Origin: a virus
Strand: one strand, 5' to 3'
IMG/VR virus record: IMGVR_UViG_3300025127_000296
Span: 1 to 22,990 of that record
DNA: 22,990 nucleotides
The notes beneath the pieces are model-generated. The model was not told the origin of the DNA, did no database searches, and was given only the letters and a program-made list of their open reading frames with translations. The first letter of the stretch is position 1, and each line of letters opens with the position of its first letter. Shown here in pieces: positions 1,652 through 22,387 of the stretch. A program made the translations under genes and the position numbers.

Positions 1652-2567
1652 TCAATGCACCTTGTAAAAAATTTGTCCATTCTATCTTTTTCTTATCCCA
1701 ACTATAAAATTTTTTTACAAAGTTTTGTTGCATTTGTAGATGTTCAAATATCTCTGGCTCGTGTATCGTGTTTACTGCTTGACGTATCGCAGATGCAAAC
1801 TTACTAGCAAGTCTCTTAGTATCTTTTTCATAGGTCACGTATACAGGAAACTCAGAACAAGTTTCATACAAAGCACCAAAGTTTGTAACTATACAAAATA
1901 ATCCAGCAGCCATTGATTCAAGAGCTGCATTACAACTTGTCTCCTCCCATATACTAGGGTATGCAAACATATGATAGCGATAAATATATTTTTGTATAAA
2001 CGAATGTTCTTTGTATCCTATGTAAGTAACATTTTCTAATTTTCTTGCTTGTTCATACAATGGTTCATATTGACTGTCGTTTGCTTTTTCAAATTCCTCT
2101 CCGTATATTTTACAACTACTAAACACATCTACATGCACGTTACAGTCTTTTAATAAACTCATAGCTCCAAGTAAAACATTAAGACCTCTCCACGGAGTTA
2201 CGTGAAAAAGCATACGAACCATATCACCATGTTTAAAAGGTGTAATTTTAGGAAAATTGTTTACACCATTTTTTATCACATGACATTTGTTAGTAGGTAT
2301 ATCAAATCTATATCTATACTTTTCATAATTCCAATGACTGTTAAAAACATACCAATCAAATTTATCGTGATTACTTTTATCTTCAAACCACGGATATATA
2401 TTAGGTTGATTGTGACTATTTTTTTGCCAAAGTATATTTATTTTATCTTTGCTTAATTCTACTTTACCTGGTATTGATGTGCATATTTGAAAATTGTCTA
2501 ATAAATTATCATCAACATAGTGTGATAGAAAACGATGTTGTATTTCAGTTCCACCTGAAGGAATCAC
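1638..2567 (-). CDS. GT4-like (GT-B fold) glycosyltransferase, GTG start
   Basis: A 309-residue GT-B glycosyltransferase. The N-terminus starts directly at a glycine-rich loop (PSGGTEIQ, residues 3-10). The C-terminal Rossmann domain has the retaining GT4 signature: E209 and E217 in EETSCNAALESMAAG form the EX7E motif that contacts the sugar nucleotide, and VTPWRG at 123-128 begins the second domain. At 309 residues it is short for the family, and the first beta-strand seems trimmed. Upstream in frame there is only ATT before a TAA, so the GTG at 2567 is the only normal start. It overlaps the SET gene stop (GTGA), with GGAG eight bases upstream. The substrate is unknown. Its partner glycosyltransferase follows with a 14-base overlap. 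Confidence 0.88.
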   Translation of the reverse strand: MIPSGGTEIQHRFLSHYVDDNLLDNFQICTSIPGKVELSKDKINILWQKNSHNQPNIYPWFEDKSNHDKFDWYVFNSHWNYEKYRYRFDIPTNKCHVIKNGVNNFPKITPFKHGDMVRMLFHVTPWRGLNVLLGAMSLLKDCNVHVDVFSSCKIYGEEFEKANDSQYEPLYEQARKLENVTYIGYKEHSFIQKYIYRYHMFAYPSIWEETSCNAALESMAAGLFCIVTNFGALYETCSEFPVYVTYEKDTKRLASKFASAIRQAVNTIHEPEIFEHLQMQQNFVKKFYSWDKKKIEWTNFLQGALNERN

Positions 2568-2881
2568 GAGCCATACTCCAATAACAACTCTTTACCTTTT
2601 TTTATTTTTTTAATCGTTATAACTTTATATACAACATAATCATCCCAGTCTAAATCAATAAACAAACGACAGTTTGGTTCGTCACTATGGTTTAAAAAAC
2701 CTCCCATCGGAGTTCTAACATATCCGTGTATTATTGGTATTTTTATATGACTCATACCTAAATCATACTTTCTAGGCAAATCAAATTTTGCAAAGACACC
2801 ATGTCCATGAGTGTTACTTACACCTATCATTAATTCTTCTGGTAAAGGATTATAATAAAACCTGTCGTATTTAATTTTCAT
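2564..2881 (-). CDS. Minimal SET-domain protein (putative lysine methyltransferase)
   Basis: A 105-residue protein that is almost entirely a SET domain. The GxG region is HGHGVFAKFDLP (25-36). The core motif GGFLNHSDEPNC (60-71) matches the NHSxxPN S-adenosylmethionine-binding signature. The C-terminus KGKELLLEYGS (95-105) matches the 'kGeEl...Yg' end, with Y103 in the place of the catalytic tyrosine. No pre-SET or post-SET cysteines are present. The size is close to the stand-alone viral SET protein of chlorella virus. By family, it should transfer a methyl group to a lysine side chain of a protein. It overlaps the preceding gene by 11 bases and the GT4 gene by four (GTGA). The target (virion, host or DNA-binding protein) is unknown. 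SET domains are uncommon in phages, but the motif match is strong. Confidence 0.85.
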   Translation of the reverse strand: MKIKYDRFYYNPLPEELMIGVSNTHGHGVFAKFDLPRKYDLGMSHIKIPIIHGYVRTPMGGFLNHSDEPNCRLFIDLDWDDYVVYKVITIKKIKKGKELLLEYGS

Positions 2882-3071
2882 CTTTGGTTTTACTTATCAT
2901 AGACAAAGCTTCTTTTGGCACTATAATATTTACATCGCACACTATATCCTCTTGTTTGGTATCTGTATTTGGATTGTCTACGTCATGTTGAGCATCTTCT
3001 TTAGAGGCATATCTTAAGTTAGTCTTTTTATTTCTGTAAGTTTCTTGTGAGGTGCATTGTATTGTTTTCAT
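2871..3071 (-). CDS. Small hypothetical protein
   Basis: A 66-residue polar, acidic protein with no family I recognise (begins MKTIQCTSQETYRNKKTNLR). It is cytoplasmic by appearance, with two widely spaced cysteines and no membrane segment. Its last 11 bases overlap the start of the SET gene. The overlap implies co-translation and suggests a role tied to the modification genes, but nothing in the protein itself supports that. The ribosome binding site is weak (AGGAT well upstream of the ATG). A 38-base AT-rich gap separates it from the oxygenase gene, with no hairpin visible there. Confidence 0.65.
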   Translation of the reverse strand: MKTIQCTSQETYRNKKTNLRYASKEDAQHDVDNPNTDTKQEDIVCDVNIIVPKEALSMISKTKDEN

Positions 3072-3109: not shown

Positions 3110-3679
3110 TTAACTAAACCAACAAACTATGCTGTATCTAGTGCCAGATAAAATAGGTTGTACAGAATGAGGGTACATAAAATTACTAGGAAACATAACT
3201 AAATCTCCTGTTTTTAATTCTACTTTACTGTATGCAAACTGCCTATCGTTAGGATAATAAAAAATCAATTCTCCACCTTTATAATCTTCGTTTAAATTAA
3301 TTATAAAAGAAAGTTGTCTATTTTCTTGATGGAAAGAGTCAGTATGTTTTTTATAAAAATTACCTGTTTTATATTTTAATAAATTTATTGATTCTAGTTT
3401 TAACTCTTGATGTAAACTTGTAAATATCTTTTGATAATTTGTAATAGCTTTACTACAGGTCTTAAATATTAATTTTTGATATAGAACATCATGTTCGTTA
3501 TTAAGGTTTAAAGGAACAGTATAAACATTTCTATGTTTAGTATCTACGTAATCACCATCATTTTTTAACATCGTAGCTTTAATACTAGGACTTACCTCTA
3601 TATGATCACACAGGTTTTTACAAACTTTTTTATCTAAAGCTTGATCTACTTTAAAAATAGCAGAACTGATTTTATCCAT
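3110..3679 (-). CDS. 2-oxoglutarate/Fe(II)-dependent oxygenase, prolyl 4-hydroxylase-like
   Basis: A 189-residue protein with a double-stranded beta-helix oxygenase core. The iron ligands read as H112 and D114 in KHTDSF, with H171 in PHSVQPI. R181 in SGTRYS sits ten residues after the second His, where these enzymes bind 2-oxoglutarate. GGELIFYY (135-142) and LKTGDLVMFPS (155-165) are typical core strands. The family uses O2 and 2-oxoglutarate to hydroxylate proteins (Pro, Lys, Asn), small molecules or, in other branches, bases. The HxD...H...R pattern is complete, so activity is plausible. The ATG overlaps the preceding gene by eight bases (ATGGATAA). Similar enzymes are frequent in marine phages, mostly without known substrates. 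Here it sits upstream of SET and glycosyltransferase genes. Confidence 0.9.
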   Translation of the reverse strand: MDKISSAIFKVDQALDKKVCKNLCDHIEVSPSIKATMLKNDGDYVDTKHRNVYTVPLNLNNEHDVLYQKLIFKTCSKAITNYQKIFTSLHQELKLESINLLKYKTGNFYKKHTDSFHQENRQLSFIINLNEDYKGGELIFYYPNDRQFAYSKVELKTGDLVMFPSNFMYPHSVQPILSGTRYSIVCWFS

Positions 3680-4022
3680 TCTCTTGAGAACGATCTATTA
3701 AAGCATAACTTATTAAGCCTTGTATTTTACTACTTCCTGTAGCAGCTTGTACAGTTATAGCATCACCAGCCTCTAAATTTAAACCTTGAGGTGTAGCGTT
3801 TACTTGTGATTTAGCTGGCACGTCATCTCTAAAAAATTCATACTCCGTGCTAGAATCAGATGAATCAACAAAATTCATATTAACTAAAATAGCTGATGAC
3901 GCATCATTATTAGCGCAATAAATACTTTTAACTATAACTGTTCCATTAGTAGGACATGTAAATACTGTAGTTTTACTTGTATCAGTTTGTTTAAAACCTT
4001 GGTTTTTATATTGTATTGTCAT
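3672..4022 (-). CDS. Small beta-rich putative structural protein
   Basis: A 116-residue protein predicted by eye to be mainly beta-strand (TTVFTCPTNGTVIVKSIYCA; GDAITVQAATGSSKIQGLI). The order 'turn it on, add a ligand or offset, avoid zero' is not seen, and I recognise no enzyme motif. Small beta-sandwich proteins of this kind, with an 'EAGDAITVQA' type segment, are common accessory virion or fibre proteins in marine phages. Position between the tail genes and the oxygenase fits that idea. The start overlaps the 54-codon gene upstream (ATGA), and the end overlaps the oxygenase by eight bases. Function is unassigned. Confidence 0.7.
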   Translation of the reverse strand: MTIQYKNQGFKQTDTSKTTVFTCPTNGTVIVKSIYCANNDASSAILVNMNFVDSSDSSTEYEFFRDDVPAKSQVNATPQGLNLEAGDAITVQAATGSSKIQGLISYALIDRSQENG

Positions 4023-4183
4023 GATAAAAAATATTCAAAAGCTTGTTGTTCATTTTTAATTTCTTGTTGATAACTAAAATTTAATTTTTGTATAATTTGA
4101 GTTAAGGCTAAATTAATTAATCTTTGGTTTTCAATATTATATTCTTCTTTTGGTTCTGGAATAAATGTATTAATTTTAGCCAA
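4019..4183 (-). CDS. 54-residue hypothetical protein with TTG start
   Basis: Found by reading the apparent gap between two genes. A TTG at 4183-4181 opens a 54-codon frame that ends in TGA at 4021-4019. It begins (M)AKINTFIPEPKEEYNIENQ and continues as a likely helix rich in Gln, Asn, Ile and Leu. AGGA lies six bases before the TTG. The start overlaps the preceding stop by eight bases, and the TGA overlaps the following ATG (ATGA). These junctions copy the style of the neighbouring genes, and the frame fills the gap exactly, so I take it as real. No function can be assigned. Confidence 0.68.
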   Translation of the reverse strand: MAKINTFIPEPKEEYNIENQRLINLALTQIIQKLNFSYQQEIKNEQQAFEYFLS

Positions 4184-7576: not shown

Positions 7577-7584
7577 ACCTCCTT
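7577..7584 (-). promoter_or_regulatory. Strong ribosome binding site (AAGGAGGT)
   Basis: On the minus strand AAGGAGGT lies six bases before the ATG of the 212-residue gene and overlaps the stop codon of the SPRY protein gene. It matches the 16S rRNA 3' end completely over eight bases, stronger than most sites here. Confidence 0.75.
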
Positions 7585-9412
7585 AAAAAGCATTGGGAAA
7601 TTTGAACGGACTTTCTGCCCAAGCAGAGTAGACATACTCACTACCACTACCATTACAACCAGCATTAGTTCCTTTTAGTCTAAAACCATTAGCAAAATAA
7701 TCTACACCATCGTGACTATCTGCTCCAGTAGCTTCTGCACTTGTACTATTCCAATATAGTTCTCTATGTGTACCATCATTGAATGGTCTTCTTAATGCAT
7801 CAGATACTAAGAACGAACCACTACCATCTATTCTTCGTAGCTGTACTAATTTTGGGCGAAAGCCAGTATGTATGTACACACCATTTGCATTGGAGTTTCC
7901 ATGATACCGACCAAAAGCTGAGAAACCTGGTATTGATGTCCAAGCCATAAATATAAAAGTATGTCCATTTGTATTTAATCCATCCGTATAATTAGTATCA
8001 AAGGTAGTCGCACTAACTGCCGACATACTGCCATTTCCTGATTTGCTTGTTTGAGATCCAGTAGTTTCAACTTGTAATACATAATTTTGATCATCTAAAC
8101 CAACGTGTCTATAAATTCTTTGGCTGTTACCATCTGATCTCATACTTATGATTAGTTCTGGAGCTTTACCCAAACCATGTCCTACTGTAGCTGTACCAGA
8201 TCCAGATAAATTTCCTGTATACGTTCCTGTACTAAACCCTATATCAGAATTTACTTGTATAGTTGATTCTCTAGCACCATCATTGTTTGTTACTGTTGTT
8301 GCAGCTTTTGCTCTCCAACACCAAGCAACATAAGTTCTTCCGTTATCGTTAGGTCCACTTCCACTTGTGCCTAATGTAAAACCATCAGAATCAAAACTTG
8401 AAATCATAGGATTATTATTACCTTGTGCCGTATCATCGATACGAGAGGTTGTATCCATTTGAAACATAAATGGAGTAGGAGTTGGACTTCTACTATTTAA
8501 AACTTGTGAATGAAATAATTGATTATTTTGGGAATGACTACTACACTTTGCCCAGATAACATCAGGCTTGAAGCCTAATCCTGTTATTGACTGTCCTGTT
8601 GTAGAGTTACCTGTGTATTGTACGATACCAAATTGTTTACCACCAACATAATCATCATCAGTTTCTGCTGGACTAATAGCATCAGCAACTGGTAAATTAG
8701 CTGAACATAAGGCTAAAAACCCCTCTGTAGAGTATTTGAACGAACCCCTGCCATTTCCATCCACTTCTGTACCAGCGGTAGTTGCTCCGAGAAATGTACT
8801 ATCTTGTCCAAAATTAAATGTGACTTCAGCATCAGCAGCAGACCAATTACCTATGGCTGGAAATAATCTTCGTGTTGTCATAGCTACATTGTGTGGAGAA
8901 CCTCCAGTGCCAAACCCCCAATTAGTACCAGCAGAAGGATCGCCAGAATTATGTATTGTTCCATTTAATCCACCCCAAAATCTACCATTATCTGCATCTA
9001 ACCAAATTCTTATTATATCTCCGTTAGTAGGAGTACCACTACCATAACTTTTATTATAAGAGCTACTGCCATTTCCAGGCCCATATAAACATGTTTGATT
9101 TTGTGAATATAATCCAAATGCTTGTGCTCCACTTGGTTGTGTAATATTGTTATATCCTAACTCTGTATCTATATTAAAAAAGTCATTACACCAACCTATA
9201 ATCATACCATTATCAGAATTAAAATTGTTTACGTAAACTTCAAAATACCATTTACCAGAAGTAACTCCAAAAGTTCCTAATGTGGTTTCATTACTGATAT
9301 TAGTATATTTTAAATTACTGCCAGTAAAACCATTTTGCCTATTTGACACATCAGTTGAACCAGCTTGTTGTCCTAATGGATTTAAAACACAAAAATTTGA
9401 ATTAGTTGTCAT
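7583..9412 (-). CDS. SPRY-domain tail fibre protein with three tandem beta-domains
   Basis: A 609-residue putative host-recognition protein. Residues about 35-205 form an SPRY/B30.2-like beta-sandwich: TLGTFGVTSGKWYFEVYV, then MIIGWC, GDIIRIWLDADNGRFWGGLN and LFPAIG. Then come three degenerate repeats of about 100 residues, near 264-367, 396-493 and 503-605. Each starts with YTGN or YHGN, passes through G[LF].P[DEK]L[IV] and ends in a strand such as YVAWCW, FIFMAW or YVYSAWAESPF. I know this repeat from many phage tail fibres. The start has AGGAAG seven bases upstream and overlaps the LamG gene stop (TAATG). In related phages LamG and SPRY parts can be one chain, so the two proteins probably act together at the tail tip. 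Confidence 0.82.
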   Translation of the reverse strand: MTTNSNFCVLNPLGQQAGSTDVSNRQNGFTGSNLKYTNISNETTLGTFGVTSGKWYFEVYVNNFNSDNGMIIGWCNDFFNIDTELGYNNITQPSGAQAFGLYSQNQTCLYGPGNGSSSYNKSYGSGTPTNGDIIRIWLDADNGRFWGGLNGTIHNSGDPSAGTNWGFGTGGSPHNVAMTTRRLFPAIGNWSAADAEVTFNFGQDSTFLGATTAGTEVDGNGRGSFKYSTEGFLALCSANLPVADAISPAETDDDYVGGKQFGIVQYTGNSTTGQSITGLGFKPDVIWAKCSSHSQNNQLFHSQVLNSRSPTPTPFMFQMDTTSRIDDTAQGNNNPMISSFDSDGFTLGTSGSGPNDNGRTYVAWCWRAKAATTVTNNDGARESTIQVNSDIGFSTGTYTGNLSGSGTATVGHGLGKAPELIISMRSDGNSQRIYRHVGLDDQNYVLQVETTGSQTSKSGNGSMSAVSATTFDTNYTDGLNTNGHTFIFMAWTSIPGFSAFGRYHGNSNANGVYIHTGFRPKLVQLRRIDGSGSFLVSDALRRPFNDGTHRELYWNSTSAEATGADSHDGVDYFANGFRLKGTNAGCNGSGSEYVYSAWAESPFKFPNAF

Positions 9413-12699: not shown

Positions 12700-13350
12700 T
12701 TATGGGGATGGTGATTGCACTGGCAATCTCATAACCCCGTCATCATAATCAGCACGTCTACGTTTACCCATTTGTGTAAGCATAAATGACTGTATATTTT
12801 CATTATACTTATCTACGTACAGTTTGTACATATCAGCTGGGCCTTTTAAATAACTAAAACATTCAACTAAAACACCATATAATAATAAATTTTCTTGGTT
12901 CTTTGATAAAAATGTATCTGTTGTTGATGTAAAATGATCAGGGTCTTTTATATAATTTACTTGCACTTCATAATTAACATCTGGTACCGGTGCTACAACT
13001 ATTGTTAATTCATTCCAATTTGCATAATATTTTGGAGTACCTGTTGCATTTGTAGGATTAAATTCAGCGATAAAAGAGGTGTCCCTTTTTTCTAAAAAGT
13101 CTCTAGTGTTGTTACTTATTATTTGTACAGAACGTATGCTAATTAAATCATCTGGCATATTTATGTATCTTTGAGTTCCAGAATTTAAGGTGATAGCATA
13201 CTCTCTTATATCATCATAATCTACTTTACCAGCTATATCTAACTCAATATTTCTGATAAATTGATCAATCAAAGTATCTGATAAAACGTTAGAATCTACT
13301 TCAGTATAATTTCTAACTTGTGTTAAAAAAGCTGAATGTGTAATACTCAT
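12700..13350 (-). CDS. Head-tail adaptor protein (SU10 adaptor-like)
   Basis: A 216-residue protein that I recognise as the phage adaptor family named after Escherichia phage SU10. Characteristic segments are LIDQFIRNIELDI (27-39), YDDIREYAITLNSGTQRYIN then MPDDLISIRSVQI, LEKRDTSFIAEFNP, APVPDVNYEVQVNYIKDPDH and LLLYGVLVECFSYLKGP. The adaptor ring sits under the portal and links it to the tail. The last part is basic (MGKRRRADYDD) and could touch DNA or the portal. The ATG overlaps the preceding stop by four bases. Its presence with a nozzle-like protein and without a tape-measure gene supports a short-tailed virion. Confidence 0.85.
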   Translation of the reverse strand: MSITHSAFLTQVRNYTEVDSNVLSDTLIDQFIRNIELDIAGKVDYDDIREYAITLNSGTQRYINMPDDLISIRSVQIISNNTRDFLEKRDTSFIAEFNPTNATGTPKYYANWNELTIVVAPVPDVNYEVQVNYIKDPDHFTSTTDTFLSKNQENLLLYGVLVECFSYLKGPADMYKLYVDKYNENIQSFMLTQMGKRRRADYDDGVMRLPVQSPSP

Positions 13351-13727
13351 GAAATCACCACACTAAAATTAGTTCCTATTGACGCATTTAATTCAAAAGA
13401 GGTTAGTTTTGTTCCTAAAATATTATCACTATTACTTGGTAACATACTAGCACCACCAGTTATTCCTGAATCTCCTGTTTCAGCAAAAAAACCATTACTA
13501 ATATACAAAAGAAAATCTTGATTATCGTCTTTAGGTCTAGGTCTAGCATTAGCTAAAGCTATAGCATCAGCTTTAATATGTTTTCTTCTTATTTGTGGAT
13601 GTTTAGGTTCAAACTCTGATTTATGTACAAAAGATCCATTCCACTCTTTTACCATTTCATTATATGGAAAAGCCATACCTGATCTATCAGATATTGCCTT
13701 TGCATGTTTTCCTTTTGCATATGCCAT
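13347..13727 (-). CDS. Conserved phage structural protein, 'MAYAKGKHAKAISDRSG' type
   Basis: A 126-residue protein. The first 65 residues are highly typical of a small marine phage protein: MAYAKGKHAKAISDRSGMAF, then PYNEMVKEWNG, FVHKSEFEPKHPQ and ALANARPRPK. The conserved half is basic with a Trp-Asn-Gly core. The second half is a variable Gly/Ser-rich stretch ending in short strands. The exact function is unknown to me. It is always seen beside adaptor genes in the phages I recall, and here it sits between two of them with a one-base overlap on one side and four on the other. That argues for a neck or connector accessory role. Confidence 0.8.
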   Translation of the reverse strand: MAYAKGKHAKAISDRSGMAFPYNEMVKEWNGSFVHKSEFEPKHPQIRRKHIKADAIALANARPRPKDDNQDFLLYISNGFFAETGDSGITGGASMLPSNSDNILGTKLTSFELNASIGTNFSVVIS

Positions 13728-14416
13728 TATGCACCTTGTGGAAAGAAAGATTGAGGAGCAATATAAACAGAAGTTCTTTGTCCGTCTTCAGTTAGTGCTC
13801 TATTTAATTCATCTTCGTATAATAATTTATTTTGTTGCACTAATTGTGGACTTCTTTTCATAGATAAATAATATGCAAGACCTGCAACCATACAGGGTAT
13901 AAATCTAAATACTACATCTGCCTGATTAGTATATGCACCAGCATCTTCAATTCTTTTTAAATAATAATATTTGACACATGTATAAGTAGAAGCATCAGGA
14001 GTTTGATACAAAGTTATTTTTGGAGTAGTTTGTCTGTCAATATAATATTGACTTGGTTGTCCTGTTGAACCTTTATTAGGTAAAGCAGCATATTCGCTTC
14101 TACTAATTTTTGTTAAAGATACGTCATTAGTATTAGCAGTTTGTGTTGTAGTTGTAGAAATGTAAGCCTCTAAAATATCGTTTGCATTAGCAGGAGCGTC
14201 ATATGTAGCTGTACCTGCTGTTAAAACTTGTGCTTTTAACTCTACTTTCCATAAATGCACACCTCTGTTTCCCCATTCAGAAAAAAGTATATTTAAGCTT
14301 CTTCTTGCAGATTTTAAGTCGTAGCCAGAGTTAGTTCTTACACCACATCTTTCATAAGCCTCTTGTATAATATCATCTATATTTAAATCAAAAGTAGTTG
14401 TCCCTGATGTAGCCAT
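13727..14416 (-). CDS. Head-tail connector / tail-tubular-A-like protein
   Basis: A 229-residue protein. The N-terminus (FDLNIDDIIQEAYERCGVRT, then GYDLKSARRSLNILFSEWGN) and RGVHLWKVEL are the hallmarks of a common connector protein of marine podoviruses, comparable in role to tail tubular protein A or gp4-like adaptors. The middle is beta-rich and holds ISRSEYAALPNKGSTGQPSQ. The C-terminal helix pair (FIPCMVAGLAYYLSMKR, LLYEDELNRALTEDGQR) completes the family pattern. It should form part of the ring between portal and tail nozzle. One-base overlaps (TAATG type) link it to both neighbours, pointing to coupled translation and near-equal amounts. Confidence 0.8.
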   Translation of the reverse strand: MATSGTTTFDLNIDDIIQEAYERCGVRTNSGYDLKSARRSLNILFSEWGNRGVHLWKVELKAQVLTAGTATYDAPANANDILEAYISTTTTQTANTNDVSLTKISRSEYAALPNKGSTGQPSQYYIDRQTTPKITLYQTPDASTYTCVKYYYLKRIEDAGAYTNQADVVFRFIPCMVAGLAYYLSMKRSPQLVQQNKLLYEDELNRALTEDGQRTSVYIAPQSFFPQGA

Positions 14417-15039
14417 TACTTAACACCTGTAAATTTTATTCCACGAATTGCAGCTCTACCACCTCGTGCTATACCACCTTCAGAAAAAGTAAGTGTGAGT
14501 GAACCTTTTATTCCTTTTGTTTTTGACCTATTCATAGGATTACTAGATGTGCTATCGTAAGCTTCTATACCAAAACTACCTCTATCTCCAAAGTTTTTTT
14601 GAGCAGTAAAACTTTTAGTTCTTCTTTTACTTTCTCCTCTCGGAGAGGAATATTTTTGTTGAGCCACTTGTCCTATTACATCAACTCCTAATATTTTTTT
14701 ACCGACAGTAACTTTACTGCCCTTTTTTGTTACTCCTGTATCACTTTTTTCTTTGAAAACTTCTGGTTTAACTATTGTTTTTCTTTTTGGTAAAATTATT
14801 CTACTTTCAGGCATACCGCCTTCGTTTAATAATTGAGTAAAACCACTTGGATCTCTTTCTAAAGATTGTTTTCTTCTATACTCCTGCATCATTTTATTTA
14901 TTTTTTTTTGTTTAGGAGTTAACTTTGGTAAAGGATTAGCTTTACGCATTTTATCATACGAAAAATCTTGAAATCCCTTTGGAAACACAGGAGAAACCAT
15001 TATACCTTTTCTTTTAAATTTTCTTATAGGTTTAGGCAT
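14416..15039 (-). CDS. Basic protein with Gly-Gly motifs
   Basis: A 207-residue, Lys/Arg-rich protein without a recognised domain. Features are an N-terminal MPKPIRKFKRKGIM, a helix with TPKQKKINKMMQEYRRKQSL, LNEGGMPESRI in the first half and a C-terminus SEGGIARGGRAAIRGIKFTG. The last block, Gly-Gly followed by ARG..AxRG..F, is a tail I associate with many small marine phage proteins. Charge suggests an internal virion protein or a DNA-contacting protein. One-base overlaps connect it with the connector gene and with the next basic protein. A 15-base palindrome lies within it at 14635-14649. Confidence 0.65.
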   Translation of the reverse strand: MPKPIRKFKRKGIMVSPVFPKGFQDFSYDKMRKANPLPKLTPKQKKINKMMQEYRRKQSLERDPSGFTQLLNEGGMPESRIILPKRKTIVKPEVFKEKSDTGVTKKGSKVTVGKKILGVDVIGQVAQQKYSSPRGESKRRTKSFTAQKNFGDRGSFGIEAYDSTSSNPMNRSKTKGIKGSLTLTFSEGGIARGGRAAIRGIKFTGVK

Positions 15040-15974
15040 TAGGTTTTAGAAATACTTTTTGGATCTTTACCAGGTCTCATTGCAGCTCTACCAAAACCAT
15101 TAGCAACACCACCACCTGACATATAACCCATCTTGTTTCTTACAGGTTTAGGTAGTTTTCTTAAACCTTTACCTTTTTTACCAGCTGGAACAGGTTTTAA
15201 ATTACCCATACCACCTGATTTTAAACCCATATATAAATCTGAACCACCAGCAGCTATATTACTACCTATTCCTAGTTTCTTTCTTACTGCTTCTTTATCA
15301 ACTTTTTTCTTAGCTTTAGTTGTTTTGCTACCAACAGCAGTTTTCCCTTGCTGTTTATTTAAATATTGTCTTAAAGTAAGACCTGATTTTGCTAGTTCCT
15401 CTTTTGTTACAGCAGCAAGTTTTTTTCCTTTTTTATTAATAAAAGTTTTAGATCCTCTTTTTTTAGCTTCAGCTATAGTTCTAGGTTCTCCTGTAAAAAC
15501 AGTTCCTGTGGCGATATTCTTTTTTGTAGCAAAATCTGAATATCTTTGTGTTTTTCCATTAACTTTTTTAATCTGACCTTTTTTTCTAGCTTCAGCTTCT
15601 TTTTCTTTTACAGATTTTCTTACTCTTATTTTACCTGTAATCGTATCAGCACTACCTTTGCCTATTTGTCCTTTTGGCTTTTCGCCAGATGCTAAGAATG
15701 CTTTAAATTTTTCTAATATACCACCATCAGATTTTTTAAATGGTTGTGCTCCAAATTTTGGACCTTTTGGTTTTGGATAACCTTTAGTTCCTAATTTATA
15801 TTCTGTATCACCCATTTTTACAGCAGCTTTGTATCTTTTTTTCTCTGCTGGTGTGACTTCTTGCTCATACAAAAAATCTTCATGTTGTCCAGCTCTGCCT
15901 TTTTTTCTTAAATTCTTAATTCTTTTTTTCTTCATTTTTTCTAGTTCTTCTAAAGGTATTCTCTCTATGCCCAT
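15039..15974 (-). CDS. Lys-rich basic protein with Gly-Gly motifs
   Basis: A 311-residue, very Lys-rich protein. A conserved-looking core reads SKTFINKKGKKLAAVTKEEL followed by AKSGLTLRQYLNKQQGK (about residues 175-210), a block I recall from marine phage proteins near tail genes. Gly-Gly elements occur as KSDGGILEKF, GLKSGGMGNLK and MSGGGVANGFGRAA near the C-terminus. Most of the rest is low-complexity basic sequence. No enzyme signature is visible. Candidate roles are packing with DNA in the head, an ejected internal protein or a structural linker. Base composition is skewed to A on the coding strand because of the lysine codons. Confidence 0.65.
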   Translation of the reverse strand: MGIERIPLEELEKMKKKRIKNLRKKGRAGQHEDFLYEQEVTPAEKKRYKAAVKMGDTEYKLGTKGYPKPKGPKFGAQPFKKSDGGILEKFKAFLASGEKPKGQIGKGSADTITGKIRVRKSVKEKEAEARKKGQIKKVNGKTQRYSDFATKKNIATGTVFTGEPRTIAEAKKRGSKTFINKKGKKLAAVTKEELAKSGLTLRQYLNKQQGKTAVGSKTTKAKKKVDKEAVRKKLGIGSNIAAGGSDLYMGLKSGGMGNLKPVPAGKKGKGLRKLPKPVRNKMGYMSGGGVANGFGRAAMRPGKDPKSISKT

Positions 15975-15983
15975 TTTATTCTC

Positions 15984-16265
15984 CTAAGTTATGTCTATCA
16001 TACCACCATAGTATTTCTTTGTAAACGTGCTCACGTTCGTTGGTTTACCACCAACTCCTTGAGCTTTAGCTCTTTTTCTTTTAACTGCACTTTTTCTTTG
16101 ACCCTCGGACATTCTTCTAGCTTTTGCTAAAGGAACACATTTAGGGTACTTTCTTTTTGCATCTGCTTTTTGTTTACTTCTACCACATGGTGCAAATGAA
16201 CCATCAGCTCTTTTACTTCCAATATCAACCCATTTTTGCTTGAACCATTTGTCTAAACCAGACAT
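15984..16265 (-). CDS. Small basic protein, DUF5872-like
   Basis: A 93-residue basic protein. The order LDKWFKQKWVDI, then PCGR, then YPKCVPLAKARRMSEGQRK and a Lys/Arg/Ala-rich end is the layout of the DUF5872 family as I remember it ('W-x-x-W-V-D-I ... P-C-G-R ... Y-P-K-C'). Two cysteines at the expected places could bind metal or pair. It ends in KKYYGGMIDIT, another Gly-Gly-Met element. Function is unknown for the family. It overlaps the neighbouring gene by one base at its start and lies ten bases before the next gene. Confidence 0.7.
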   Translation of the reverse strand: MSGLDKWFKQKWVDIGSKRADGSFAPCGRSKQKADAKRKYPKCVPLAKARRMSEGQRKSAVKRKRAKAQGVGGKPTNVSTFTKKYYGGMIDIT

Positions 16266-17628: not shown

Positions 17629-17937
17629 TTAACACTTCCATCTACGTCTTGCTTGACGCAATCTTGAATTAGGATCTTTTGCAGCTTTAGGAAATTTTTT
17701 CATCTGTCCTGCACTTCTAGCGCAAAATGATTTACGTCTTTTTGCAGCTTTACTTCCTGGTTTTACTTTACCTGTAACAGCAGTTTGTAGTTTAGATCCA
17801 GGGTTTTTTCTTCTATAAGCAGCAACACCTGCTTTGGTCATACCTGCACCAGATTTAGTAGGTCTAAAGTTTTGCTTATTTCGGGGAGGCATGCCTCCCC
17901 TTTTTAAACCAATAAGGTCTGCTGTGTAATTATCCAT
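17629..17937 (-). CDS. Highly basic small protein, DUF6321-like
   Basis: A 102-residue, Lys/Arg-rich protein. From about residue 26 on it follows a conserved marine phage pattern: PTKSGAGMTKAGVAAYRRKN, then PGSKLQTAVTGKVKPGSKAA, KRRKSFCARSAGQMKKFP and SRLRQARRRWKC at the end. I believe this is the DUF6321 family, of unknown function. The first 15 residues (MDNYTADLIGLKRGG) look like an extension, since many relatives in my memory begin near MPPRN. The ATG at 17892 would restore that start, but the GGAGG before it is only one base away. The gene overlaps the previous one by eight bases. An 18-base perfect palindrome encodes RGGMPPR. Confidence 0.78.
   Translation of the reverse strand: MDNYTADLIGLKRGGMPPRNKQNFRPTKSGAGMTKAGVAAYRRKNPGSKLQTAVTGKVKPGSKAAKRRKSFCARSAGQMKKFPKAAKDPNSRLRQARRRWKC
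17883..17905 (+). terminator. Perfect GC palindrome plus T5: terminator-like on the plus strand
   Basis: GGGGAGGCATGCCTCCCC at 17883-17900 is an 18-base perfect inverted repeat in an AT-rich genome, directly followed on the plus strand by TTTTT. Folded with a CATG loop it gives a seven-base-pair GC-rich stem and a U tract, the form of an intrinsic terminator, but pointing against the genes. On the minus (coding) strand the hairpin is followed by GAAATAAG, not a U tract. Confidence 0.45.
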
Positions 17938-21955: not shown

Positions 21956-22387
21956 TTAAAATAGTGCGAGGACATCCTCGGGGTTTTTAATAGTTCCTAT
22001 AATTTCGTCATCGTTTAAAATCCTATGCTCACCATATTTTGTTTTAAACCTAGCTCCAGCATATCTACCATAAATAACAAACTGACCTCTTTTACACCAA
22101 GGACCACTTGGAAATTTATCTGTATCCTGATAACACAATGGACCCATTTTAATAACTAAACCTACTACTGTAGTTACTTCCATAGTTTCTTGTGTTTTAT
22201 CAGACAGGTAAACTCCACCTTCAGTTTTATTACTAGGAACATGCGGCCTTATTAAAATTCTGTATCCTACTGGATCAGGTAGCATTTTGTAATAAGCTTC
22301 TCGCTCTTTGCTCGTCATTGGTATGTTTGGTTTTTTTGTTTCTTTACTTTTTGGTAATATTAATTTAGGTTTGTTCGTCATTATCAT
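21956..22387 (-). CDS. Phage-encoded GroES-like co-chaperonin
   Basis: A 143-residue Cpn10 protein. After a 36-residue Lys-rich extension come PDPVGYRILIRPHVP (37-51), the mobile-loop segment TEGGVYLSD (55-63) and VVGLVIKMGP (74-83). KRGQFVIYGRYAGARFKTKY (99-118) and ILNDDEIIGTI (123-133) follow. This is the GroES beta-barrel in order. The GG-V-Y-L loop resembles the GroEL-binding GGIVL. An insertion of about 15 residues (LCYQDTDKFPSGPWC) is longer than in bacterial GroES. The protein probably replaces host GroES to fold the capsid protein, as T4 gp31 does. AGGAAG lies seven bases before the ATG. It overlaps the previous gene by 23 bases. Confidence 0.88.
   Translation of the reverse strand: MIMTNKPKLILPKSKETKKPNIPMTSKEREAYYKMLPDPVGYRILIRPHVPSNKTEGGVYLSDKTQETMEVTTVVGLVIKMGPLCYQDTDKFPSGPWCKRGQFVIYGRYAGARFKTKYGEHRILNDDEIIGTIKNPEDVLALF

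Follow-up and report, generated by a model that had tools for sequence, protein, structure and literature searches.

The 105-residue SET-domain protein encoded on the minus strand at positions 2564 to 2881 of the window, which is the entire 22,990-base IMG/VR fragment analysed here, is probably a minimal SET protein-lysine methyltransferase, carried by phages as a dispensable cassette of a single gene, and a conserved host protein is a more likely target for it than a part of the virion. All main genes of the fragment lie on the minus strand, and since its major capsid protein shares 80% identity with the one from Pelagibacter phage HTVC023P, the window comes from an HTVC023P-like phage, with SAR11 as the most likely host. 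Work on SET enzymes has dealt almost entirely with writers of eukaryotic chromatin marks and with effectors that bacteria send into eukaryotes; a large family in phages, related to genes in biosynthetic operons of bacteria, would turn lysine methylation of bacterial proteins during infection into a testable question.

The SET gene and its predicted fold

A preliminary description of this DNA had proposed that a phage encodes a minimal SET domain standing alone, 105 residues long, with GxG, NHSDEPNC and a terminal EYG but lacking pre- and post-SET cysteines, and had named a profile search as a check. These points are borne out. The open reading frame starts with ATG and stops with TGA, the plus strand of the same interval is full of stops, and the protein matches the Pfam SET profile PF00856 at E=2.9e-8, scoring 34.5 bits against a curated cut-off of 22.4, with the best stretch confined to profile positions 63-105. 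The phrog_28741 profile (positions 3-93 of 100) aligns to residues 10-103 of 105 at E=5.3e-23. GHG occupies residues 26-28 and GGFLNHSDEPNC residues 60-71, and the chain closes with LEYGS. Its sole cysteine is Cys71, so the zinc cysteines of pre- and post-SET are missing.

The gene belongs to a sizeable family. A first scan for relatives returned 23 loci, and the family profile run against viral contigs found relatives encoded in at least 554 stretches. The family is thus abundant in marine phages, which does not fit the earlier view of SET proteins as mainly eukaryotic and only scattered elsewhere. A plasmid search gave one weak match. PF00856 was matched independently by 43 of 43 relatives (E<=0.01), and all 43 diverse members tested also match PHROG 28741. 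Within the window's clade the median dN/dS is 0.10 over 64 pairs, and the gene is under strong purifying selection. The frame is short and AT-rich, which could suggest that the ORF is spurious or resembles SET by chance; this reading has a negligible probability and is ruled out by the PF00856 scores of the protein and its relatives, the low dN/dS, conservation from phages to bacteria and a fold predicted with high confidence. The SET ORF is a real gene.

Conservation across 57 non-redundant members singles out the residues expected of a SET domain together with some that are particular to the family (all coordinates on the minus strand). Towards the N-terminus lies a family motif, Y10-x-P-L-P14 (2840-2854), in which Y10 and L13 are invariant (57/57) and the tyrosine is found in 116 of 117 scored proteins. 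SET motif I follows as G26-H-G28 (2798-2806), G28 being kept in all 57 members and G26 in 54, and His45 within a GxxH motif (2747-2749) is likewise present in all 57. Residues 56-71, RTPMGGFLNHSDEPNC (2669-2716), comprise SET motif III preceded by a family-specific RTPxGGF lead, and here R56, T57, P58, G60, G61, F62, N64, H65 and N70 are each found in 57 of 57 members, with a wider fetch showing that position F62 may be Tyr (L208, L210). SET motif IV is ELLLEY at residues 98-103 (2573-2590), with E98 and the catalytic-position Tyr103 in all 57; S22 and G42 are invariant as well. Among 118 distinct proteins, selected by motif, 116 keep Tyr103; of the other two, one runs into the end of its contig and one terminates right ahead of this position, so that all complete copies but one retain it. 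Compared with the published motifs III (RFxNHxCxPN) and IV (ELxFDY) (PMC3980110), both are present in the window protein, the Arg of RFxNH being replaced by Gly. When the motif-II tyrosine was mapped by sequence, none was recognisable in the window protein; vSET and the fetched bacterial SET proteins also have no clear YxG, and for this reason no missing catalytic tyrosine is claimed. His45 lies near the place of the motif-II tyrosine of many SET proteins and may correspond to motif II.

An AlphaFold2 model built with the 43-member alignment reached a mean pLDDT of 90.2 and a pTM of 0.79. Its Foldseek matches are SET methyltransferases (PFL0690c at E=1.9e-6, MLL1, SETD8 and vSET), and VIA-align gives Z scores of 12.0-12.3 for MLL3, MLL1, PFL0690c and vSET, and about 11-12 across MLL1, vSET and SETD8. 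Residues 10-105 of the model align to SET chains, which would imply that the C-terminal segment makes the pseudo-knot crossing. By sequence, the closest proteins of known structure are MLL1/KMT2A and further SET domains. With such a confident model and SET domains as its structural matches, the SET (beta-clip) fold is well supported by prediction; the contrary outcome named in the preliminary description, a predicted structure without this fold, did not arise.

The domain is nevertheless strongly reduced. Between the second GxG glycine and the asparagine of NHS most members count 36-37 residues and the window protein 36, and its chain ends two residues past Tyr103; by these distances SET-I is almost gone and post-SET absent. 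These are the segments, SET-I and the post-SET or C-terminal part, that usually, though not universally, form the substrate groove of SET methyltransferases. The fixed residues YxPLP, GxxH and RTPxGG may do the work of the missing parts. By its tested motifs and predicted fold the protein is classed as SET, yet it has a reduced core and conserved residues of its own. Few SET enzymes may be smaller than the members of this family, which would make them useful for finding out what is essential in the catalytic core.

With SET-I and post-SET lost and no motif-II tyrosine to be recognised, activity could be altered or lost. The extreme reduction (only 75 residues in the G28-Y103 core) would also suit a SET-like beta-clip protein that is structural or catalytically dead, or a regulator that binds SAM, and the beta-clip fold is used by non-enzymes too (PMC5344890). 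A dead protein would not need fixed cofactor and catalytic positions, however, and these do not vary even among highly diverged members from phages and bacteria, which makes this reading improbable. Judged by sequence and model, the protein is quite likely a SAM-dependent protein-lysine methyltransferase: the active role suggested in the preliminary description gains from the strong constraint on the SAM and catalytic motifs. SAM would with good probability bind in the GxG/NH pocket, with Tyr103 helping to place the substrate lysine for methyl transfer. As SET-I and post-SET, the usual groove formers, are nearly or fully absent, the substrate could plausibly be a lysine on a surface or tail, held in an open cleft lined by YxPLP, His45 and RTPxGGF or completed by a partner or dimer, although this step is less secure than the chemistry itself.

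Genomic placement in phages

In the window's clade the gene order is c7-c8-c4-2OG oxygenase-c9-SET-glycosyltransferase-glycosyltransferase-like, with virion genes further upstream. Gene-order comparison identified c8 as a conserved 54-aa ORF (4019-4183, minus strand) and c4 as a 116-aa ORF (3672-4022, minus); they are followed by a 2OG-Fe(II) oxygenase (3110-3679, minus; PF13640 E=5.4e-20, phrog_61) and by c9, a 66-aa ORF (2871-3071, minus) with no Pfam match, which overlaps the SET start by 11 bp and is also found without SET. On the other side a group 1 glycosyltransferase (1638-2567, minus; PF00534 E=5e-12) overlaps the SET stop by 4 bp with its GTG start, and a glycosyltransferase-like gene (869-1651, minus) has a weak Anp1 match and a match to phrog_1574. 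The preliminary description had placed the gene in a structural operon, embedded by overlaps; the overlaps are there, but the operon is structural only further upstream, and the next-door genes are the small ORF of unknown function, the oxygenase and the two glycosyltransferase-like genes.

Across 53 distinct regions running from c9 to the glycosyltransferase, SET is present in 20 and absent from 33, and the cultured pelagiphages HTVC023P and HTVC027P have an empty site at the homologous position. In most close relatives without SET, the c9 stop lies at or a few bases from the glycosyltransferase start, whereas in the regions that carry SET short overlaps arise on both sides and the insert junctions are exact. 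SET is an optional one-gene insert between the 66-aa ORF and the glycosyltransferase. The empty sites rule out SET as a core part of the virion operon, and since most c9 loci show no SET, the 66-aa ORF is likewise ruled out as an obligate partner or substrate. In some relatives other genes occupy the slot or its vicinity, among them one for a JmjC_2 protein (PF08007) and one for a 2OG oxygenase-like protein. The JmjC_2 gene is flanked by the 2OG oxygenase and the 66-aa ORF at L012:5114-5788, L014:5102-5788 and L187 ~1831-2480 (PF08007 E=2.3e-16 for the L187 copy), which places a JmjC enzyme of phages close to SET.

Other phage lineages place the gene differently. It separates the terminase and portal genes in L074, L076 and others, and elsewhere it lies within a group of primase, helicase and DNA polymerase genes, near a RusA gene, beside gp25 (baseplate) in cyanophage P-RSM6, and, in a second lineage (L054-L066), directly before a gene of the same oxygenase cluster as in the window. 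SET ORFs of the same family in the Prochlorococcus phages P-SSM7 and P-RSM6 and in the Pelagibacter phage Kolga EXVC016S share the motifs and the length (99-102 aa) with the window protein, but are annotated as 'hypothetical protein' and differ from it in genomic position. Given its presence or absence at one site and its varied sites elsewhere, SET behaves as an autonomous accessory gene roaming between unrelated phages. The preliminary description had taken the overlaps to suggest an active role, perhaps on a virion protein; as an argument for a virion role they fail because the gene is optional at the site and is placed, in other lineages, among terminase and portal, replication or baseplate genes.

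A virion target can be argued for on other grounds, namely that SET, the 2OG-Fe(II) oxygenase and the glycosyltransferases form one protein-modification block, within which SET acts on a protein of the phage's own virion or tail fibres. The position in the window's clade, downstream of virion genes and beside these enzymes, agrees with such a block, as do the JmjC_2 gene that some SET-carrying relatives add in the same stretch, the 2OG oxygenase-like gene (E=1.9e-4, below the cut-off) that others add, and the oxygenase neighbour in L054-L066. However, related phages retain oxygenase and glycosyltransferase without SET, some SET carriers have no oxygenase match, and other phages have the gene next to replication functions, as bacterial chromosomes have it with no phage genes around, so that a virion target seems unlikely.

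Several further genes of the window, all on the minus strand, were noted. A GroES-like co-chaperonin (21956-22387; PF00166 Cpn10 E=4.6e-10) lies near the head genes, and four very Lys/Arg-rich proteins are encoded between the capsid and tail genes (17629-17937, 15984-16265, 15039-15974 and 14416-15039), one of which matches DUF6321 (PF19846, E=1.1e-12); they are possibly DNA-binding and conceivable as SET substrates. Two different proteins (12700-13350 and 13727-14416) both match SU10_adaptor (PF24175). A 609-aa protein (7583-9412) with an SPRY-like N-terminal part, just below the cut-off, and a DUF7483 match (E=1.4e-75) is perhaps a tail or receptor-binding protein.

Bacterial relatives and the possible target

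A scan of about 85,000 species genomes found 29 bacterial loci, mostly in marine MAGs or single cells; several are clearly chromosomal, others resemble phage contigs. The chromosomal homologues rule out a restriction of the family to phages. With neighbour gene names read from the translated neighbours, the order in Flavobacteria is argG-argC-SET-proC-argD in L110, and the same order recurs in L118 and L130; the SET genes (L110:4659-4952, L118:3768-4043, L130:4995-5288) are joined to their neighbours by short overlaps or gaps, and a function in or near arginine/proline metabolism is possible for them. In Porticoccaceae and relatives the gene has fabB on one side and a peroxiredoxin gene on the other, with no phage context (L121:4968-5300, and L123, L125, L127, L128, L134 and L135). 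The window protein is 43% identical to the L110 protein, and the chromosomal copies at the argC-proC and fabB loci share the YxPLP...RTPLGGFxNH signature with it, but they are located in or next to biosynthetic operons and often have a few extra C-terminal residues. A separate, longer bacterial SET family of about 200 aa, with a full-length SET match, was also seen (L142-L158, L163-L165 and others); some SET match occurs in 29 of 149 genomes from the family to which the L110 genome belongs, mostly of this longer type. The protein tree groups the window protein with phage sequences alone, in a clade of 31 rows (100/97), with the bacterial rows elsewhere among other phage rows; the tree comes from 112 columns and has many open forks, so the direction of transfer is not readable from it.

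The gene moves among unrelated phages and is found in bacterial operons of host type, so its target could be a conserved host protein, for instance of the translation or nucleoid machinery, whose methylation would aid infection; taken alone, this step has somewhat less than an even chance. Genomic distribution makes such a protein a more likely target than a part of the virion. More tentatively, the family might represent a widespread phage-bacterial clade of ultra-small SET methyltransferases (~93-110 aa) that have their own active-site set (YxPLP, the invariant His and RTPxGGF) and no groove and that methylate host proteins during infection, in which case protein-lysine methylation would be a common, unrecognised host-takeover tool of marine phages.

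Comparison with known SET proteins

In the literature covered on SET domains in cyanophages, pelagiphages and phage auxiliary genes, which leaves most subscription journals aside, no description of this family was found, and its members have been filed mostly under 'unknown function' (PHROG 28741) or, in isolates, as 'hypothetical'. Wider reading brought up an unrelated review, work on bacterial DNA methylomes and on chloroplast methylation, and other papers that do not bear on SET proteins of phages. SET annotations in phages do exist, for uncultured Caudovirales (BFVD) and MW202744, and in passing for ORF62 of Stenotrophomonas phage Ps15 (PMC9025141). What these share with the window protein is a SET domain in a tailed phage; the BFVD proteins are 128-263 aa long as against 105 aa here. 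Eukaryotic SET domains such as those of MLL1/MLL3 and SETD8 are embedded in larger proteins and have a full SET-I and, in many cases, a post-SET. They provide the best sequence and fold matches to the window protein, at about 20% identity.

Viral histone methyltransferases of the vSET type methylate H3K27 and act as dimers. By analogy with vSET and with a chlamydial SET protein, the phage enzyme might methylate a nucleoid or other DNA-binding protein of the host: vSET of chlorella virus PBCV-1 methylates host H3K27 and represses transcription, and the chlamydial protein acts with the histone-like Hc1/Hc2 (PMC3089700). That vSET is among the closest fold matches agrees with this analogy, but the likeness is at the level of fold and motif only and the substrate-binding SET-I and post-SET are missing, so that this particular target is rather improbable. 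Like the window protein, vSET (A612L) is a small stand-alone viral SET with GxG, NHS and a final Tyr, and it aligns with the model at a VIA Z of 12.0 over 89 residues (rmsd 2.5), with about 22% identity. In contrast, it has 52 residues from GxG to NHS compared with 36 in the window protein, and its chain of 119 residues continues past the Tyr at 105, whereas the window protein stops two residues after Tyr103. Furthermore, the host of vSET is a eukaryote with histones while the likely host of the window phage, SAR11, is a bacterium, and the window protein is not classed as a member of the vSET group.
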